A program made the position numbers and the translations under genes. Source: Luteibacter aegosomaticola (GTDB lineage: Bacteria > Pseudomonadota > Gammaproteobacteria > Xanthomonadales > Rhodanobacteraceae). From it: a stretch of 64,000 bases of DNA. Under the pieces are notes generated by a model. The model was given only the letters and a program-made list of their open reading frames with translations. It searched no databases and had not been told where the DNA came from. Where the stretch lies: NCBI RefSeq assembly GCF_023078475.1, contig NZ_CP095741.1, forward strand, positions 4,810,001 through 4,874,000, read 5' to 3'. The stretch's first letter is position 1, and every line of letters starts with the position of its first letter. Shown here in pieces: positions 4,606-39,612 of this stretch.

Positions 4606-5372
4606 TCGGCGTAGTCCACGGTGAACGGGGCATGGTCAGAGAAGCGCTCGTCGCGGTAGATGGAGCAATCGCGCAGGCGGTCGCGCAGGCCCGGCGTGAC
4701 GATCTGGTAATCGATGCGCCAACCCACGTTGTTCGCGCGCGCCTGGCCGCGGTTGCTCCACCAGGTGTACTCGACCGCATCGGGCTTGAGCGCGCGGAAG
4801 CTATCCACCCAGCCGATCTCCTGGAAGAGCAGATCGAGCCATGCACGCTCCTCGGGCAGGCAGCCGGAGTTCTTCTGGTTCGAGGTCCAGTTCTTGATGT
4901 CGTTCTTCGTGTGGACGATGTTCCAGTCACCACACAGCACGTACTCGCGGCCGCTGGCGGCCCACTCACGGAAGATGGGTGTGAGCCACTCCATGATCCG
5001 GAACTTGTACTGCTGGCGTTCGTCGCCCGACGAACCCGACGGAATATAGAACGAGACCACGCTGAGATTGCCGTAGCGCGCCTCGATATAGCGGCCCTCG
5101 CAATCGAAATCCTCGCGGCCCAGCGACGTGCGGACTTCGTCCGGCTCGCGCTTCGAATAAATGGCCACGCCGCTGTAGCCCTTTTTGCTGCGGGCATCGT
5201 GATAGAAGCAGTGATGGCCGTCCGGGCGGAACATCGGATCGGTCAGCTGCGCTTCCTGCGCCTTGGTTTCCTGCAGGCAGACGACGTCGGCGTCCTGCTT
5301 GCGGAGCCACTCGAACACACCCTTGGTGGCGGCGGAACGAATGCCGTTGGCGTTCAGCGAAATGATGCGCAT
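4602..5372 (-). CDS. xthA: Exodeoxyribonuclease III
   Basis: 256 residues from the ATG at 5372 ([14 protein letters not shown]). An upstream in-frame extension to 5411 has no family character. Motifs of the exonuclease/endonuclease/phosphatase fold are present: [27 protein letters not shown] and the final [10 protein letters not shown]. The enzyme cuts at abasic sites and degrades 3' ends in base excision repair. It is translationally coupled to ampG through a 4-bp overlap and divergent from pyrE. Confidence 0.93.
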
Positions 5373-5476
5373 GGGATCTCGGGTCGATAAGCGATGGGCC
5401 CATGATAGCAACCGGGGCGCACCCGGGCGTCGCGCGGTACCATGGCCGCCTTTGCTTTCACCGGGAACCTACCGCC

Positions 5477-6124
5477 GTGCACGATTACCAGCGCGAATTC
5501 ATCGAGCTCACGCTCGCCCGCGACGTCCTCCGCTTCGGCGAGTTCACCCTCAAATCCGGCCGTACCAGCCCGTACTTCTTCAACATGGGCCGGATCGATT
5601 CCGGCGCGGCCCTCGCGCGCCTCGGCCGCTCGTACGCGGCTGCCGCCGTCCGCTCGGGCGTGGCGTTCGACATGCTGTTCGGGCCGGCCTATAAGGGCAT
5701 CGCGCTGGCCGCGGCTACCGCGATCGCGCTGGCCGACACCCAGGACCGCGACGTGCCGTGGGCGTACAACCGCAAGGAAGCCAAGGACCATGGCGAAGGT
5801 GGCACCCTGGTCGGCGCCCCGCTCAAGGGCCGCGTCCTTATCGTTGATGATGTGATGACCGCCGGCACGGCCGTGCGCGAATCGCTGGAACTCATCCGCG
5901 CCCAGGGCGCCGAGCCGGCCGGCGTGCTGATCGCGCTCGACCGCCAGGAACGTGGCCAGGGCGAGCTCTCGGCGGCCCAGGAAGTGGCAGCCCAGTTCGG
6001 GATCCCCGTTATCGCCATCGCCAGCCTGGCCGACGTGCTCACCTACGCCGGGGAGCGCACCGAACTCGCCGCGGAACACGAGCGCCTGCTCGCTTATCGC
6101 GCGCAATATGGCGTGAAGGCCTGA
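5477..6124 (+). CDS. pyrE: Orotate phosphoribosyltransferase
   Basis: 215 residues from the GTG at 5477; the family length is about 213, and the reading frame upstream to 5402 is not conserved in style. The N-terminus [20 protein letters not shown] and the PRPP-binding loop [17 protein letters not shown] are diagnostic. It makes orotidine 5'-phosphate from orotate and PRPP in pyrimidine synthesis. It lies divergent from xthA, a neighbourhood shared by many gammaproteobacteria. Confidence 0.95.
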
Positions 6125-6913: not shown

Positions 6914-9271
6914 TCAGAACGGCATCTGCAGCTTCGCGTCCACGGCGTGGAGCTGCAGACGGAACGCCTGCTTCACCCGCTCCAGGGCCTTGGCGCTATC
7001 GGCGTCGAAACGGAACACCAGCGCAGGCGAGGTGTTCGACGCACGGACCAGCCCCCACCCATCCGGCCAATCGGCACGCACGCCGTCGAGCGTGGTGATG
7101 CGCGCGTCATCGAACGTCGCCTTCGCCCGGAATGCCTCCATGAAGCGCGCGGACGCGCCTTCCGGCATGGGCAAGCGAATTTCAGGCGTCGATACGCTCT
7201 TCGGCAACGTCTCGAAGATTTCCGATGGCGAGCGGTCCTCGAGATCGGCCGCCAGGAGCTCCATCAGGCGCGCTGCGGCGTAGATGCCATCGTCGAAGCC
7301 ATACCAGCGGTTGTTGTCCGCGAAGAAGAAGTGGCCGCTCATTTCACCGGCCAGTGCCGCGCCGGTTTCGCGCATCTTCGCCTTGATCAGCGAATGCCCG
7401 GTGCGCCACATCATCGGCACGCCCGCGGCATCCTGGATCACCTTGCGCAGGTGGCCGGTGCACTTCACATCGTAGATCACGGTGGCACCGGGATTGCGGG
7501 CCAGCACGTCCTGCGCGTAAAGCATCAACAGGCGGTCGGGGTAGATGATTTCGCCCGACGGCGTCACCACGCCAAGCCGGTCGCCATCGCCATCAAAGGC
7601 GATGCCGAGGTCCGCGCCAATAGTGTGCACGGCGGCAATCAGGTCGCCGAGGTTGCGTGGATCCGACGGGTCGGGGTGATGGTTCGGGAAGCGGCCATCC
7701 ACGTCGCAGTACAGCGGCACCACCTCGCAACCGACCTCTTCGAGGACACGCGGCGCCACCGCACCGGCCGCGCCGTTGCCCGCATCCACGACGATCTTGA
7801 GCCGGCGCTGCGTTGAGACGTCATCGGCGACGCGGTTTACGTAGGCGTCGAGCACCGATTGCTCGCGCCAGCTGCCGTGGCCGCCGGTCGGCAACCCACC
7901 GGCGACGATGCGCCGGTAAAGGTCGGCGATCGCGTCTTCGGCCAGGGTTTCACCGCCCACCACGATCTTGAAGCCATTGTAGTCGGGCGGATTATGGCTG
8001 CCCGTCACGGCCACGCCGCAGCCCGTCCCAAGCTGGTAGCAGGCGAAGTAGACGAGCGGCGTCGGCACCGCGCCAAGGTCGATCACATCAATGCCCGCAT
8101 CGCGCAGGCCATCCATCAGTGCGCCACCCAACTCCGGGCCGGACAGGCGGCCATCGCGTCCCACCACGATCTCGGGCAGGCCACGTTCGCGCATCACCGC
8201 GCCAATCGCCTGGCCAATCTGCCGTGCGGTATCGGCCGTCAACGTCTTACCGACCACACCGCGAATGTCGTAGGCACGGAAGATGGCCGGATCCACGGGC
8301 GCGGCGGCGGCCTGTGCCGGTACCGGCGCGGCTCGCTCGAGCGTCGGCCGCGCGGCAACCGCATCGCCCTGTGCCGGCGAAGGCGGCAGGCGCGGCTTGC
8401 GCTGCACATCCGCCACCAGGATCTCCTTTTCCTCGGGGGCTTCTTCGACCACGGGTGCCGCCCGGCTGCGCGACCAGAGCAGGAAAGCACCGCCACCCAG
8501 GCCGACCAGCGCCAGTAGCGCTGCCAGCACTTCCGAATGCGGAATAACGATGAACGCTCGCGGCATGGCCGCGAACACGTAGAGCGCCGCGCCCTCCACA
8601 CGCAGGCCCTGGCTACCGAGTTCACCGCTGTGACGGCCTTCGGCGATCAGGCTGAGGCTATCCGGGCCATCACCCTGGCGAAGTTCAAGCCGCCCGCCGT
8701 GAGGCGAGATGGCCGCGAACCGGTTGGCAAACCCCTCGAACGGGTACTCCAGCCACGCCCAGGCGCGCAACGCACCGCCAGCCTGGATCGGCTCGACGAC
8801 ACTGAGCCGGCGCTTCCCGTCACTGGTCTGCGTACTAGCGGGCGGCGGCTCGCTGGCACTGAGCGCGGCCATGAGCTGGGCCGCCTTGGCGTAACCAAAC
8901 TCGCGGTAATTCGCGCGGACGACTTCATCCAGGCCCGGGCTATACACCTCGACCGCCACGGCGGAAGGCAACAACGCGTGGAGCCGGGCCGAAGCGGCCG
9001 CATGGTCATCGATGCCGGCAAGCAAGGTCGGGTCGTTTAGCGCAGCGAGAAAGGGCTTGCGCAGCCCCGCGTATTCCGCCGAAAGCTGGCGCGCCGCCTC
9101 TGCCTGCGAGGCGCGGACGTCCGCCGCCGCGCTCTCCTCATCGGCGATCAGCCACGCCTGCCAGGCGCAAAAAGCGCCCGCGGCAAGCAGTACGGTGGCT
9201 CCCACTAACGTGAGCAGCTTCCGTACATCGACGCGAGGCCCCCGCCCCACCCCTCTCGCTATCCCAGCCAT
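6914..9271 (-). CDS. algC: Phosphomannomutase/phosphoglucomutase with membrane-anchored N-terminal half
   Basis: 785 residues. Residues 1-330 hold a membrane segment (LLTLVGATVLLAAGAFCAWQAW), a periplasmic-type region, a second hydrophobic stretch (VLAALLALVGLGGGAFLLW) and a proline/alanine linker. The catalytic half begins at DPAIFRAYDIRGVVGKTL and carries the phosphoserine loop TGSHNPPDYNG, the metal loop FDGDGDRLG and the sugar loop GEMSGH. It interconverts mannose or glucose 1- and 6-phosphates for exopolysaccharide and LPS. The fused N-terminal half is usual in Xanthomonadales AlgC. It is the last gene of coaBC-dut-algC. Confidence 0.92.
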   Translation of the reverse strand: MAGIARGVGRGPRVDVRKLLTLVGATVLLAAGAFCAWQAWLIADEESAAADVRASQAEAARQLSAEYAGLRKPFLAALNDPTLLAGIDDHAAASARLHALLPSAVAVEVYSPGLDEVVRANYREFGYAKAAQLMAALSASEPPPASTQTSDGKRRLSVVEPIQAGGALRAWAWLEYPFEGFANRFAAISPHGGRLELRQGDGPDSLSLIAEGRHSGELGSQGLRVEGAALYVFAAMPRAFIVIPHSEVLAALLALVGLGGGAFLLWSRSRAAPVVEEAPEEKEILVADVQRKPRLPPSPAQGDAVAARPTLERAAPVPAQAAAAPVDPAIFRAYDIRGVVGKTLTADTARQIGQAIGAVMRERGLPEIVVGRDGRLSGPELGGALMDGLRDAGIDVIDLGAVPTPLVYFACYQLGTGCGVAVTGSHNPPDYNGFKIVVGGETLAEDAIADLYRRIVAGGLPTGGHGSWREQSVLDAYVNRVADDVSTQRRLKIVVDAGNGAAGAVAPRVLEEVGCEVVPLYCDVDGRFPNHHPDPSDPRNLGDLIAAVHTIGADLGIAFDGDGDRLGVVTPSGEIIYPDRLLMLYAQDVLARNPGATVIYDVKCTGHLRKVIQDAAGVPMMWRTGHSLIKAKMRETGAALAGEMSGHFFFADNNRWYGFDDGIYAAARLMELLAADLEDRSPSEIFETLPKSVSTPEIRLPMPEGASARFMEAFRAKATFDDARITTLDGVRADWPDGWGLVRASNTSPALVFRFDADSAKALERVKQAFRLQLHAVDAKLQMPF

Positions 9272-9295
9272 GTTGCCCCTTACCCTTCCGGAGTA

Positions 9296-9751
9296 TCAGT
9301 TGACGCCGGTGGACCCAAAACCGCCCTCACCCCGGCGCGACGGTGTGAACCCGTCGACGACGCGCAAACGCGCCCGCCCGACCGGCACCAGCAATAATTG
9401 CGCAATCCGGTCCCCCGGTGCGATGGTCAAATCGGCAGTTCCGCGATTCCATGCCGAAATCATGAGCGGTCCCTGGTAATCCGCATCGATAACACCCACC
9501 AGGTTGCCCATGACGAGCCCCTGCTTATGGCCGAGGCCCGAGCGCGGCACGATCAGAGCACACCAGGCGGGGTCGCCGATGTGAATGGCCATACCGGTCG
9601 GCACCAGGACGCTTTCACCGGGCTTGAGCGTGATGGGCGCCTCCACGGCAGCCCGCAGGTCCATGCCAGCGCTGCCGTCGGTGGCAGGTTCCGGCAGCGG
9701 GATGCTGTCGCCCAGGCGGGCGTCGAGCACCTTGAGTTCAATGTCGATCAA
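9296..9751 (-). CDS. dut: Deoxyuridine 5'-triphosphate nucleotidohydrolase
   Basis: 151 residues, the usual trimeric dUTPase size. All five family motifs are visible: [33 protein letters not shown] and the C-terminal [10 protein letters not shown]. It hydrolyses dUTP to dUMP, keeping uracil out of DNA and feeding thymidylate synthesis. Its start codon overlaps the coaBC stop by 4 bp, so translation is coupled; algC follows after 24 bp. Confidence 0.96.
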
Positions 9752-35283: not shown

Positions 35284-36498
35284 ATGGATTTTCTAGGCAT
35301 GCATACGCACGACCCAAACAAGCAAGTTAGCTTCATCCAGCAAGCGCTGTCTCAAAATCGAAAGCCAATTGCATTCCTCATTGGTGCAGGTTGTCCGCTC
35401 GCGGTGCGCGTCGAGAGAGAAAAGGGTGGCATCCGAGAGAATCAGCCGCTGATATGGGACGTCGCAGGTCTCACGAAGATTATCGATACGCGTCTTGGTG
35501 GTTCCGACAAAGCCTCACCATCAACGTGGAACAGGCTGATTGAAATCGTTACTGACGATGGTGGCGACCCAAACAACATTGAGCACATCCTGAGCAAGAT
35601 TCGCATCCTTAAGGCTGTCGCTGGCAAGGGAAAGGTCCGCGACATGGATGCGACCGAGCTGGATGAACTCGATACCGGAGTTTGTGGAATCATTTCCGAA
35701 GAGGTTGATCGGTCCCTGCCAAACAAGGAGACGCCGTATCACAACCTCGCGATTTGGGCTAGGTCCATTAGGCGTGAGTACCCCGTTCATCTGTTTACGA
35801 CGAACTACGATCTGCTAATGGAGCAAGCCCTTGAGGAGAGTTCAGCACCGTATTTCGATGGCTTTGTCGGATCCCGAAATGCCTTCTTCGACCTTGGCGC
35901 AGTCGAGGACGAACGCCTTCTTCCTGCGCGTTGGGCTCGGCTCTGGAAGATTCATGGATCACTCAATTGGCGTCTAGTGGACAATCGATCCGTTGTTCGG
36001 AGCGACGCCAAGGCGGACAACCACTCCTATCTGATCTACCCGTCGCACCTCAAGTATGACCAAAGCAGAAAAATGCCGTACTTGGCGATGCTCGACCGCC
36101 TCAAGGCGTTTCTCCTAGAGCCCTCCGCCGTCATGTTTGTCTGCGGCTACTCTTTCGCAGACGAACATATCAACGACGTAATTTGTCGAAGTCTGGATGC
36201 GAATCCGACCGCACATATGTTCGCGTTCTTGTATGGCGGGCTCGATGAAGGAAAGTACGACTTGGCCAGAAACTGCGCACTGAACACCCCAAACCTGAGC
36301 ATGCTTGCCTTTGACAAGGCGATTATTGGACGCAATGCGGGGGATTGGAAAGCCGAAGACATCGAAGGCCTCTCTTTACCCCCCGGAATTCTCCAGAAAG
36401 TCGGCACCGACGTCTCACTCACGCTAGGAGATTTTTCCTCCTTCGGAAAGCTACTCCGGGATCTCTCAGGGACCGAGGAGAAGCCGCATGGCGCTTGA
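35284..36498 (+). CDS. SIR2 domain protein of a SIR2-HerA (Nezha-type) defence pair
   Basis: 404 residues. The NAD-binding sirtuin-like core shows AFLIGAGCPLAV near residue 33, FTTNYDLLMEQAL near 172 (the Asn of TTNYD is typical of NAD-cleaving defence SIR2 domains) and WKIHGSLNW near 222 (the catalytic His). A Rossmann-like MFVCGYSFADEHIND follows. Known homologues degrade NAD on phage infection and kill or stall the cell. The gene overlaps herA by 11 bp. Its base composition is lower in GC than the neighbours, which suggests horizontal transfer. No clear ribosome site precedes ATG 35284; ATG 35299 is an alternative. Confidence 0.9.
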   Translation: MDFLGMHTHDPNKQVSFIQQALSQNRKPIAFLIGAGCPLAVRVEREKGGIRENQPLIWDVAGLTKIIDTRLGGSDKASPSTWNRLIEIVTDDGGDPNNIEHILSKIRILKAVAGKGKVRDMDATELDELDTGVCGIISEEVDRSLPNKETPYHNLAIWARSIRREYPVHLFTTNYDLLMEQALEESSAPYFDGFVGSRNAFFDLGAVEDERLLPARWARLWKIHGSLNWRLVDNRSVVRSDAKADNHSYLIYPSHLKYDQSRKMPYLAMLDRLKAFLLEPSAVMFVCGYSFADEHINDVICRSLDANPTAHMFAFLYGGLDEGKYDLARNCALNTPNLSMLAFDKAIIGRNAGDWKAEDIEGLSLPPGILQKVGTDVSLTLGDFSSFGKLLRDLSGTEEKPHGA

Positions 36499-38374
36499 AG
36501 CACAGAGCACAGGAACCGTCATCGGAACTGTGCAGGACGTGAGCGGATCGTCCATAAGCGTAACTCTGCGAACTGATCGTTCGGGCTTGAGCTTCGTACG
36601 CGGTCAAGGATACAAGATTGGACAAATCGGCAGCTTTGTTAAGATTCCTATTGGATACGTCGACCTGTTTGGCATCGTTTCACAAGTGGGCGCGAGCGCC
36701 GTACCAGAGAGCCTGGCGCAAAGCATGCCGAATGGCTTGCGTTGGATGACAATTCAACTTATCGGCGAGGGGTACCGGTCTGGAAAGTTTCAACGAGGCA
36801 TATCTCAGTACCCAACCATCGAGGACGAAGTGCACCTCGTTTCTGAGGCCGACCTTCAGGTCATCTATGGAAAGTCCGGACGACAAAATCATCTTGTACG
36901 CGTAGGGCATATCGCAGGAAGCGAGTCGATTGATGCGCTTCTTGATATTAACAAGCTAGTGACAAGACATTCCGCGATCGTTGGCACAACAGGATCCGGG
37001 AAGTCTACAACCGTGGCCGGACTGCTGAACGTGCTGTCCGATGGCGAGCGCTTCCCATCGGCCAGAATCGTCGTTCTTGATTTACACGGAGAATACGGTC
37101 GTGCACTTAGTGATCGCTCCAGCATCTTCAAGATAAGTCCAGACGCAAGGAGGGCGAACGAGCAGCGCTTGTGCATCCCGTTTTGGGCGCTTACGTTTGA
37201 CGAATTCATGCAGGTGTCATTCGGAGATCTTCCGCCTGATGGAAAGGCTCGAACACTAATCCTGGAGCGCGTTGTCGCAGCCAAAGCGCAGAGTCTTGCA
37301 AATAATCCAGTACCCGGCCTAGCGGCGGATCAAGTAAATGGTGACAGCCCGATCCCATTTTCACTGAACAAGCTGTGGTACGACCTTTACTGCACAGAAT
37401 TCGGCACATTCTATAGCAGCCTTGGTAGCGCGACAGACCCGAGCACCTGGGCTTACGAGAAGGATGCGCTGGGAAACGAGTTGCGCGGAGATGCTGCGAC
37501 GGGGATGCCCCCGCGCTTTAGAAAGGTCAAGAATGTCCGCGACGATCTCGAGAAGATAAATTACATTCCAGATGGCCTCAATATTCGGGGGGCGCTCGAG
37601 GCACTCGGCGCCAAGCTCCGAATGTCGCGATATGATTTCCTCCTAAAGCCCGGCAACTGGCATCCCGACATGTCAGGCCATACGCAGAGCGGTGTCGCCG
37701 AACTAATCAAACAATGGCTTGGCAGCTCCAAACCTATAACCATTCTGGATCTTTCGGGCATACCTTCGCTAATGATGAACGACATCATTGGAAGTATCCT
37801 TCGAGTTCTGTATGACGGATTGTTTTGGGCGCGAAACCTTTCGGAGGGCGGGCGCGAACGTCCACTTCTGGTCGTCATGGAGGAGGCTCACGCCTACCTA
37901 AACGACGACTTCTCGAAATCGGCATCCATCATCACGCAGCGCATAGTAAAGGAGGGAAGGAAGTACGGCATCGGAGCGATGATAGTCAGCCAACGCCCTT
38001 CCGAGATAAATCCGACCATCTTGTCGCAATGCGGCACATTCTTCGCCATGAGGCTCAGCAATGGAACTGATAGGTCGCATGTAACTGGTGCGCTGGCAGA
38101 CAACCTTGAAGGCCTGACCAATATGCTTCCAATTCTTCGAACGGGCGAGGCCATCATCCTCGGAGAAAGCGTGAAACTTCCTATGCGAACGATGATTCAA
38201 GCGCCGCCGAAGGATAGACTACCTGACAGCCAAGATCCTATCGTCTGCGATGAGGTCAGCCTCGAGGAATCAATGGCACCAGGCGGCTGGAATGTGCGGC
38301 ACCCAGACCATGCTGATTACAGCCATTTTGCGGAAGCTTGGCTGACACAAGATCCACTGATTTCAAATAAGTAA
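36488..38374 (+). CDS. herA: HerA-type ATPase/helicase of the SIR2-HerA pair
   Basis: 628 residues. An N-terminal HAS-barrel-like region is followed by an FtsK/HerA ATPase: Walker A IVGTTGSGKSTTV near residue 166, Walker B LLVVMEEAHAYL near 459, and SQRPSEINPTILSQC near 498 carrying the arginine-rich sensor segment. Such HerA proteins form hexamers that hold the SIR2 effector. The start overlaps the SIR2 stop, and the KTSC gene starts 15 bp after the stop, so three genes look like one operon. Confidence 0.92.
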   Translation: MALEAQSTGTVIGTVQDVSGSSISVTLRTDRSGLSFVRGQGYKIGQIGSFVKIPIGYVDLFGIVSQVGASAVPESLAQSMPNGLRWMTIQLIGEGYRSGKFQRGISQYPTIEDEVHLVSEADLQVIYGKSGRQNHLVRVGHIAGSESIDALLDINKLVTRHSAIVGTTGSGKSTTVAGLLNVLSDGERFPSARIVVLDLHGEYGRALSDRSSIFKISPDARRANEQRLCIPFWALTFDEFMQVSFGDLPPDGKARTLILERVVAAKAQSLANNPVPGLAADQVNGDSPIPFSLNKLWYDLYCTEFGTFYSSLGSATDPSTWAYEKDALGNELRGDAATGMPPRFRKVKNVRDDLEKINYIPDGLNIRGALEALGAKLRMSRYDFLLKPGNWHPDMSGHTQSGVAELIKQWLGSSKPITILDLSGIPSLMMNDIIGSILRVLYDGLFWARNLSEGGRERPLLVVMEEAHAYLNDDFSKSASIITQRIVKEGRKYGIGAMIVSQRPSEINPTILSQCGTFFAMRLSNGTDRSHVTGALADNLEGLTNMLPILRTGEAIILGESVKLPMRTMIQAPPKDRLPDSQDPIVCDEVSLEESMAPGGWNVRHPDHADYSHFAEAWLTQDPLISNK

Positions 38375-38389
38375 TGAGGAGAGCCAGAT

Positions 38390-38608
38390 ATGTCATGGGA
38401 AGAGTTCCCCCCGTTTACGTCGTCAAACGTACAGTCGGCAAGATATGACCATGAACAGAGTATCCTCGAAGTAGCGTTTTTGAATGGATCTGTCTACCAG
38501 TACTTCGACGTACCCGCACAGGTAGCAAACGCGTTCAAGGCCGCTGAGTCGAAAGGATCGTTTCTCGCCTCGAACATCAAGGGCTTCTTTCGATACAGCA
38601 GGGTTTAG
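38390..38608 (+). CDS. KTSC domain small protein
   Basis: 72 residues. AGGAGAG lies 8 bp before the ATG. Almost the whole protein is one KTSC domain, with the central YxY motif (GSVYQYFDVP) and the C-terminal FLASNIKGFFRYSRV. KTSC domains occur alone or at the end of some lysyl-tRNA synthetases and are thought to bind RNA. The 15-bp spacing after herA points to a shared transcript, so it may be a sensor, regulator or antitoxin of the SIR2-HerA pair. That role is inference only. Confidence 0.82.
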   Translation: MSWEEFPPFTSSNVQSARYDHEQSILEVAFLNGSVYQYFDVPAQVANAFKAAESKGSFLASNIKGFFRYSRV

Positions 38609-38618
38609 ATTTCACGAA

Positions 38619-38651
38619 AGACGCTGCTCGCCAGATCGGCAAACAGCGTCT
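38619..38651 (+). terminator. Hairpin after the KTSC gene
   Basis: AGACGCTG and CAGCGTCT form an 8-bp stem, with GCC/GGC inside the 17-nt loop, 10 bp after the stop codon. No T-run follows. It marks a possible end of the SIR2-HerA-KTSC transcript. Confidence 0.45.
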
Positions 38652-39042
38652 GTGACCTTCCCACAGATCTATGCAGGCAGCTAAAGGGAGATTCGAGTGA
38701 TACTCGGTCGCTGCTGCGCGAACCGCTGTCGCCCCTTTCAAACCGGCTCCGGCTAGCTGGTGATCTTTTGACCTAACGGGCCAGGTGCTTTCCGATCGAT
38801 GGTACGGAATGGCCGTCGCGTTCACTTTGTGACAATAGGTTTTCGTCCAGCGCGTCGAGAGCCCCTCAACATGACGCTCCTCCATATGCGCGCTTTCTTG
38901 TGGATTCGCGCAATTCACATTGAAAGTTACCACTAGCGAGCCTAACATCCCTCGCTAAATTTGGGACGCCACCCGTGCCTCCACACGGAGCTGCCCTGGA
39001 TTACAAACGGACTGCCTCAGCGCAGAAAAAACAGGGAAATTA
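38652..39042. other. Gene-free spacer after the SIR2-HerA-KTSC operon
   Basis: About 390 bp with stops in all frames and no coding pattern on either strand. I see no repeat, RNA gene or IS end. An AAAACAGGGAA purine stretch just before 39043 may serve as the ribosome site of the next gene. Confidence 0.5.
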
Positions 39043-39612
39043 ATGAAAAGCATGTGGTGGGCATTTTGGGTTGTAGTCGCACTTTTGCTATCTGCAACTG
39101 CGGTTGTTTCGAGAGTGGTCTATCAAACGCCGGCCCCGCCTAGCAGCACGGCCCTGTTCGAATCGATCAAGGCGATGCTTCTTTGCCTAGGCGGATCTGG
39201 CGTAATTCTTTCAACGTATTTCACCGCAGTTAACGCCTTTGTTCAGCGAAGAGCCGACATTATTCAGAATACTTTCCACCTGCTCGCGAGCTGGGATGAT
39301 CCGCACCTCTTTCAAGCACGCAAACTCACAAGGCGAGCAAAGGAAACGCGAGAAGATACATCGAACAACGGCCTTATTGAGGAGATTGAGAAGAATGAAG
39401 ATCTGAAGAATTCGGTCATTCTTGTCCTGAACTACTTCGAGCACATCCATTTTTCGCTTATCACCCGAAGGATCGACAAACGCCTCTTCAAGAGAGCTCT
39501 TGGAGCTACTGTAGTCGACATAATTGACAGGTTCATGCCGTTCGCGAAGAAGCAGGGCGATCAGGTGGTTGCCGACCTGATCGCATTAAAGAAATTGCTA
39601 CAAGAAGAATGA
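39043..39612 (+). CDS. DUF4760-like membrane protein
   Basis: 189 residues. Two membrane segments (WWAFWVVVALLLSATAVVSRVVY and AMLLCLGGSGVILSTYFTAV) are followed by a cytoplasmic helical domain. Stretches such as LLASWDDPHLFQARKL and VILVLNYFEHIHFSLITRRIDKRLF resemble DUF4760 proteins, which occur beside defence genes but lack known function. Its codon use is like the SIR2-HerA genes. It is 434 bp from them, with a hairpin between, so it is a neighbour of the operon and not clearly part of it. Confidence 0.7.
   Translation: MKSMWWAFWVVVALLLSATAVVSRVVYQTPAPPSSTALFESIKAMLLCLGGSGVILSTYFTAVNAFVQRRADIIQNTFHLLASWDDPHLFQARKLTRRAKETREDTSNNGLIEEIEKNEDLKNSVILVLNYFEHIHFSLITRRIDKRLFKRALGATVVDIIDRFMPFAKKQGDQVVADLIALKKLLQEE

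Follow-up and report, generated by a model that had tools for sequence, protein, structure and literature searches.

A separate KTSC-domain gene as a likely third component of a SIR2-HerA defence clade

Described SIR2-HerA systems and the Luteibacter locus

SIR2-HerA defence systems are usually described as having two genes. In the Nezha/SIR2-HerA systems of Escherichia coli (PDB 8j4u, 8uae, 8sub) and Vibrio cholerae these genes overlap, and reports on them, PMC11559045 for V. cholerae, describe a 12:6 complex. In such systems SIR2 hydrolyses nicotinamide adenine dinucleotide (NAD), and in V. cholerae protection is lost upon mutation of the SIR2 active site or deletion of herA. The trigger of SIR2-HerA is listed as unclear in PMC12198126. 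The subject of this analysis is a SIR2-herA pair in a 64,000-nucleotide stretch of the Luteibacter aegosomaticola genome (NZ_CP095741.1, positions 4,810,001 to 4,874,000; "the window"). It likewise has overlapping genes and the same active-site motifs, and is followed by a small third gene encoding a KTSC-domain protein. The evidence assembled below makes it likely that the KTSC protein is a fixed part of the SIR2-HerA defence machine that two-gene descriptions omit.

The three genes form a single operon-like block on the + strand (window positions 35284-38608). SIR2 (35284..36498; 404 amino acids (aa), a predicted NADase effector) lies directly upstream of herA (36488..38374; 628 aa, an ATPase of the hexameric-translocase type) on the same strand, with an 11-bp overlap (36488-36498). 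The KTSC gene (38390..38608; 72 aa, the putative third component) starts after a 15-bp gap (38375..38389) in which a ribosome-site-like stretch, GAGGAG, precedes its start. The coordinates, overlap, gap and SIR2 and HerA motifs given in the original prediction all stand, as does the ribosome site of its own that it ascribed to the KTSC gene.

The SIR2 protein matches Pfam SIR2_2 (E 4.7e-21) and the PADLOC SIR2 model PDLC04094 (E 1.4e-130), and has a solved relative in PDB 8w9l (E 8.3e-100); the HerA protein matches the Pfam DUF87/HerA central domain (E 1.4e-34) and the PADLOC HerA model PDLC04105 (E 1.7e-152), with PDB 8wiv as a solved relative (profile E 1.4e-224). Homology to the solved SIR2/HerA complex thus holds for both window proteins. 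The SIR2 and HerA proteins of that series (8wld, 8wof, 8wiv, 8wj3, 8woc, 8wod and 8wk0, with 8w9l for SIR2) are related to those of the window, and in it a KTSC domain forms the C-terminus of HerA (residues about 612-696 of 696), resolved in several chains. These structures presumably come from Paenibacillus, and perhaps from Liao 2024 in NAR. Where the solved HerA carries KTSC fused within its 696 aa, the window encodes it as a separate 72-aa gene product.

That product scores 80.3 bits against Pfam KTSC PF13619 (E 8.5e-23; curated cut-off 25) and has the predicted KTSC fold, which places it in the family, and the Pfam matches bear out the original reading of a SIR2-HerA pair with a genuine KTSC gene. 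Its predicted fold is the one that the solved, complex-forming HerA has in its C-terminal domain. The window KTSC protein is likely to be a separate form of that domain. What is new here is the three-gene form with a separate KTSC; a KTSC domain within solved SIR2/HerA structures is known already.

Other described systems stand further off. The E. coli Nezha HerA is more distant (23-24% identity to a fused HerA of the present clade, L022, for which an AlphaFold model exists), and its 8j4u HerA chain has no KTSC detectable by sequence, whereas the window system has one. In PMC9503650, HerA is coupled with KTSC, called DNA-binding, in a variant that carries an endoDNase instead of the sirtuin; the HerA-KTSC gene coupling is common to both, but the window has a sirtuin and no endoDNase in its place. 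DUF4297-HerA is also an effector-bearing HerA ring supported by a C-terminal add-on (the hook); its effector differs, and the hook is not described as a KTSC domain, whereas the partner of the window HerA is one. Within the open literature searched, in its accessible parts, only PMC9503650 ties KTSC to HerA; the reports behind the solved structures lay outside that search. The original prediction had held that KTSC is not a described component of such systems. For detection tools and the open literature searched this is borne out; it does not quite hold in view of the KTSC domain resolved in a solved HerA and of the variant mentioned in PMC9503650. No PADLOC, NCBIfam or PADLOC-like model matches the KTSC protein at E 1. 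The NCBIfam antiphage equivalogs are also unmatched by its partners (SIR2, 72.7 of 500 bits; HerA, 218.1 of 850 bits); judged by sequence scores, the window system is outside these narrower SIR2/HerA families.

Linkage of KTSC to one HerA clade

The linkage survey was seeded on HerA, and KTSC had no part in the selection. Of the 191 stretches that matched in a scan of genome contigs with an alignment of 22 HerA rows, 148 could be confirmed; the loci analysed are the best 80 of the 148 (HerA identity 44-78%). All open reading frames (ORFs) of these loci were then searched with a KTSC profile (21 proteins) and with the window SIR2. SIR2, HerA and KTSC lie in that order on one strand in 80/80 loci. 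The distance from the SIR2 stop to HerA ranges from -17 to +50 nt. KTSC is a separate ORF in 73 loci and fused to the HerA C-terminus in the other 7; where separate, its domain begins -11 to +47 nt past the HerA ORF in 72 of 73. The last of these (L045) has a spacing of 315 nt that is probably due to a frameshift, since the length of its HerA match is not a multiple of 3. By chance, a KTSC gene would begin within any given 100 bp of the same strand with a probability of ~2e-6. One relative from the genus (L084) also has HerA and KTSC.

Genome-wide counts agree. Searches of 398 genomes of the phylum (HerA at E 1e-20, with up to three candidates scored per genome, so that the HerA results hold among the matches listed) found KTSC in 51 genomes, at 70 places, and HerA in 84. 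The HerA matches fall into two groups: in 8 genomes they exceed 300 bits, and in all others they reach 150 at most. KTSC stands directly behind HerA in all 8 of these clade genomes (7/7 when the window's own is set aside; loci L094 and L118-L125), and the probability that all 8 would fall by chance among the 51 KTSC genomes is 4e-8. A KTSC gene is also present in 23 of the 76 other HerA genomes, never adjoining HerA among the matches listed. The original prediction would have fallen had KTSC genes stood beside SIR2-HerA no more often than chance; with 80/80 loci and 8/8 genomes against a KTSC background of 51/398, chance is refuted.

The linkage is absent from the loci examined outside the clade. 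A control set of 20 such HerA loci, taken with ~4-5 kb of flanking sequence in both directions as far as the contig reached, includes 7 with SIR2 directly upstream and none with KTSC; the single weak KTSC row of the control (E 0.42) falls within a SIR2 ORF and is antisense to it. No KTSC was found in 22 short outgroup HerA loci (L126-L147) that are partly the same places as the control. The PADLOC HerA model PDLC04105 matches HerA on both sides of this divide. A HerA tree built from 101 rows of the clade plus 7 SIR2-HerA rows that lack KTSC (105 of the 108 distinct; the partial loci L084 and L125 omitted) splits off the 7 by one branch, with SH-aLRT support of 99 and a long-branch warning from the program. 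The window HerA lies on the KTSC side, with KTSC directly after it, and so belongs to the KTSC-bearing clade. The motif residues are invariant throughout the clade (101/101 rows): in SIR2 these are N, Y and D in TxNYD and K, H, G and S in KxHGS, and in HerA the Walker A G-K-S and EEAH. By record titles the clade spans Pseudomonadota, Bacteroidota, Verrucomicrobiota, Spirochaetota, Chloroflexota and Thermodesulfobacteriota. One row from a record titled Bacillus sp. 2B10 (L013) is nested in an alphaproteobacterial group of the tree; it may be a recent transfer or a mislabelled contig.

Fusion of the two genes recurs within this tree. No fewer than 5 changes are needed to account for the 8 fused rows of 101 (7 of the 80 loci and one viral contig), so fusion or fission of HerA and KTSC happened repeatedly. 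All 8 of the long KTSC proteins found have HerA domains. Because KTSC is fused to HerA in these 8 of 101 rows, two of the roles that the original prediction had floated, antitoxin and transcriptional regulator, fit poorly. As an antitoxin or silencer, KTSC would keep the SIR2 NADase inactive in uninfected cells. In favour of such a role, its gene is small and closes an operon that also encodes a predicted NAD-depleting enzyme. The fusions are all to HerA and none to SIR2, however, a KTSC domain is resolved within the assembled SIR2/HerA complex, and other SIR2-HerA clades have no KTSC. We regard this role as very improbable.

The linkage also bears on the suggestion that KTSC is an unrelated gene carried in the same mobile block. 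The block does look mobile: its G+C content is 53.0% against 64.2% for the window, as low as in only 1 of 122 same-length sliding stretches, and on this compositional evidence it looks horizontally acquired. Against a passenger stand the 80/80 and 8/8 linkage and the repeated fusion, set beside 0/20 outside the clade; these rule it out, leaving it scarcely conceivable. What a true hitchhiker looks like can be seen in the adjoining DUF4760 gene, which among 168 loci is confined to the window's own stretch.

The trio also occurs on plasmids and viral contigs. A gene annotated as KTSC follows HerA in 5/5 plasmid records opened of 30, at HerA identities down to 35%. Of 10 viral-contig loci 9 carry the trio; the exception (L157), a partial match at 31%, has neither SIR2 nor KTSC. 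Clade HerA was absent from 50,697 phage records at E 1e-10 (the two matches were both partial), and a search with the window herA DNA, at the DNA level only, gave no match in E. coli genomes. At 35% HerA identity, the trio furthest from the window's own occurs on Citrobacter and Aeromonas plasmids (L158 and L159); in both, the same recombinase gene stands in front of it, as if the whole had moved as a unit.

If this clade always carries a third part, assays done within it with SIR2 and HerA only may have used an incomplete machine, and two-gene detection tools miss the marker that separates the clade from its KTSC-less relatives. The KTSC component deserves a name of its own.

Possible roles of the KTSC subunit

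The linkage, the fusions and the solved complex together point to a KTSC protein that is, very probably, a constitutive subunit of the HerA ring, usually encoded by a separate gene. The separate protein would take the place of the fused domain on the C-terminal side of the ring at about one copy per HerA, so that the particle, by analogy with the 12:6 ratio of characterised systems, might be composed of 12 SIR2, 6 HerA and 6 KTSC. We give about an even chance to a fuller proposition, namely that this constitutive third subunit, docked on the ring, also contacts the DNA that the ring handles. At the mouth of the ring KTSC might then bind DNA, probably as single strands or ends, and engagement of phage DNA by HerA would license the SIR2 NADase. 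DNA contact is favoured because a euryarchaeal KTSC family protein is, by the title of Tian 2022, a single-stranded-DNA-binding protein, because PMC9503650 calls its HerA-linked KTSC DNA-binding, and because HerA is itself a DNA translocase. The "RNA-binding" label attached to KTSC is a guess made in databases.

Several observations weigh against a DNA-contacting subunit. KTSC is missing from other SIR2-HerA clades that are functional or have solved structures (E. coli 8j4u, by sequence; none of the 7 pairs outside the clade has it), so that the chemistry of SIR2-HerA does not in itself depend on KTSC. The defence KTSC domains are acidic, with a median net charge of -3 against +2 for 28 other KTSC domains (the two sets of pieces being trimmed slightly differently), which does not favour DNA binding. 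This charge was dropped as a decisive argument, given the title of Tian 2022 and the comparable acidity of the euryarchaeal KTSC structure 7x8c, for which a hand count over visible residues gives 7 K/R and 8 D/E, or -1; that 7x8c is the protein of Tian 2022 is inferred from titles. The fused AlphaFold model (L022) gives KTSC no firm place on the ring: it fits the solved HerA core to ~3 Å, but to 21 Å with KTSC included, and its linker is of low confidence.

Some of these observations suit a structural part better, in which KTSC would staple neighbouring HerA protomers together, as the hook of DUF4297-HerA does, with no contact to DNA. The repeated fusion to HerA and the presence of KTSC in solved chains fit such a clamp equally well, as do the acidic domains, and SIR2-HerA is said in PMC12198126 to be without a hook of this kind. 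The 21-Å disagreement between KTSC in the solved chain and the monomer model would be that expected of docking on a neighbouring protomer, but also of a wrong linker. Other SIR2-HerA complexes, on the other hand, assemble with no KTSC at all. It was the title of Tian 2022 that moved the odds from the clamp to DNA contact, and the clamp, drawn by analogy from the DUF4297-HerA hook, is a tentative, somewhat unlikely alternative.

Rates of change speak to whether KTSC is instead a trigger sensor, the third role in the original prediction, which would turn the complex on upon meeting a phage protein or nucleic acid. Among close relatives the rate of change of KTSC is about double that of HerA (2.13, with SIR2 at 1.66), and its pairwise distances track those of HerA less well (r 0.59) than do equal-length blocks of SIR2 (0.81-0.90) or of HerA itself (0.74-0.86). 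Both speak for a sensor. In distant pairs, however, the ratio falls to 0.92, so that the low correlation can be put down to saturation, the sites free to vary being few; swapping of KTSC between systems was rejected as its cause, mainly on account of this saturation. Within the window's subclade, moreover, 21 of 200 SIR2 blocks change as much as KTSC or more, and five KTSC alignment columns are invariant across 80 sequences. Saturation accounts for the pattern of rate and correlation as well as selection does, and a trigger sensor is, on balance, unlikely.

That KTSC has a gene to itself has one practical consequence: it can be removed while HerA is left intact, whereas the solved version, being fused, does not permit this. 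The most extended form of the DNA-contact reading would have a three-part clade spread over many phyla, in which KTSC serves as a DNA-sensing licence for NAD depletion, removable as a separate gene, and stand-alone KTSC proteins of phages and prophages (for example those near Rha genes in L091 and L099) act as poisoning look-alikes. This version, taken whole, we consider quite doubtful.

Surroundings of the block and stand-alone KTSC genes

The hairpin that had been noted after the KTSC gene is present (38612..38655, + strand; -20.4 kcal/mol, z -3.5). It is no standard intrinsic terminator; it is missing from the terminator-scan list because no T-run stands behind it. Directly 3' of the block, at 39043-39612, is the DUF4760 gene (G+C 48.6%; match to phrog_26526, E 1.6e-46). 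It was considered as a fourth part and rejected, with matches only in L001 and L120, both of them the window's own stretch. A clean empty site was not found in the genus: among its 22 other genomes, relatives of the LysR flank do not exceed 47% identity, and 3 genomes have a match to the flavin-reductase flank.

The genome itself (one contig of 5.09 Mb) has two KTSC genes, the second of which, at C1:2810830, has no adjoining HerA gene within a 3.2-kb locus. KTSC relatives are encoded by 13 of the 50,697 phage records, including Caulobacter phage Seuss and Colwellia phage 9A. In two loci (L091 and L099) stand-alone KTSC genes scoring near the defence KTSC (88-91 bits) adjoin Rha genes (Pfam Phage_pRha), and it is probable that such look-alikes travel on prophages. 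Further genes appear beside the trio elsewhere. On a Pseudoalteromonas plasmid (L161) a SLATT-domain gene follows SIR2-HerA-KTSC at 5256-5810. In L043 the gene right after the trio (8123-9304) encodes a fusion of a second KTSC domain with a C-terminal part, and the latter has a match to PADLOC candidate PDC-M36A (E 2.6e-19); KTSC may be shared by more than one defence system.

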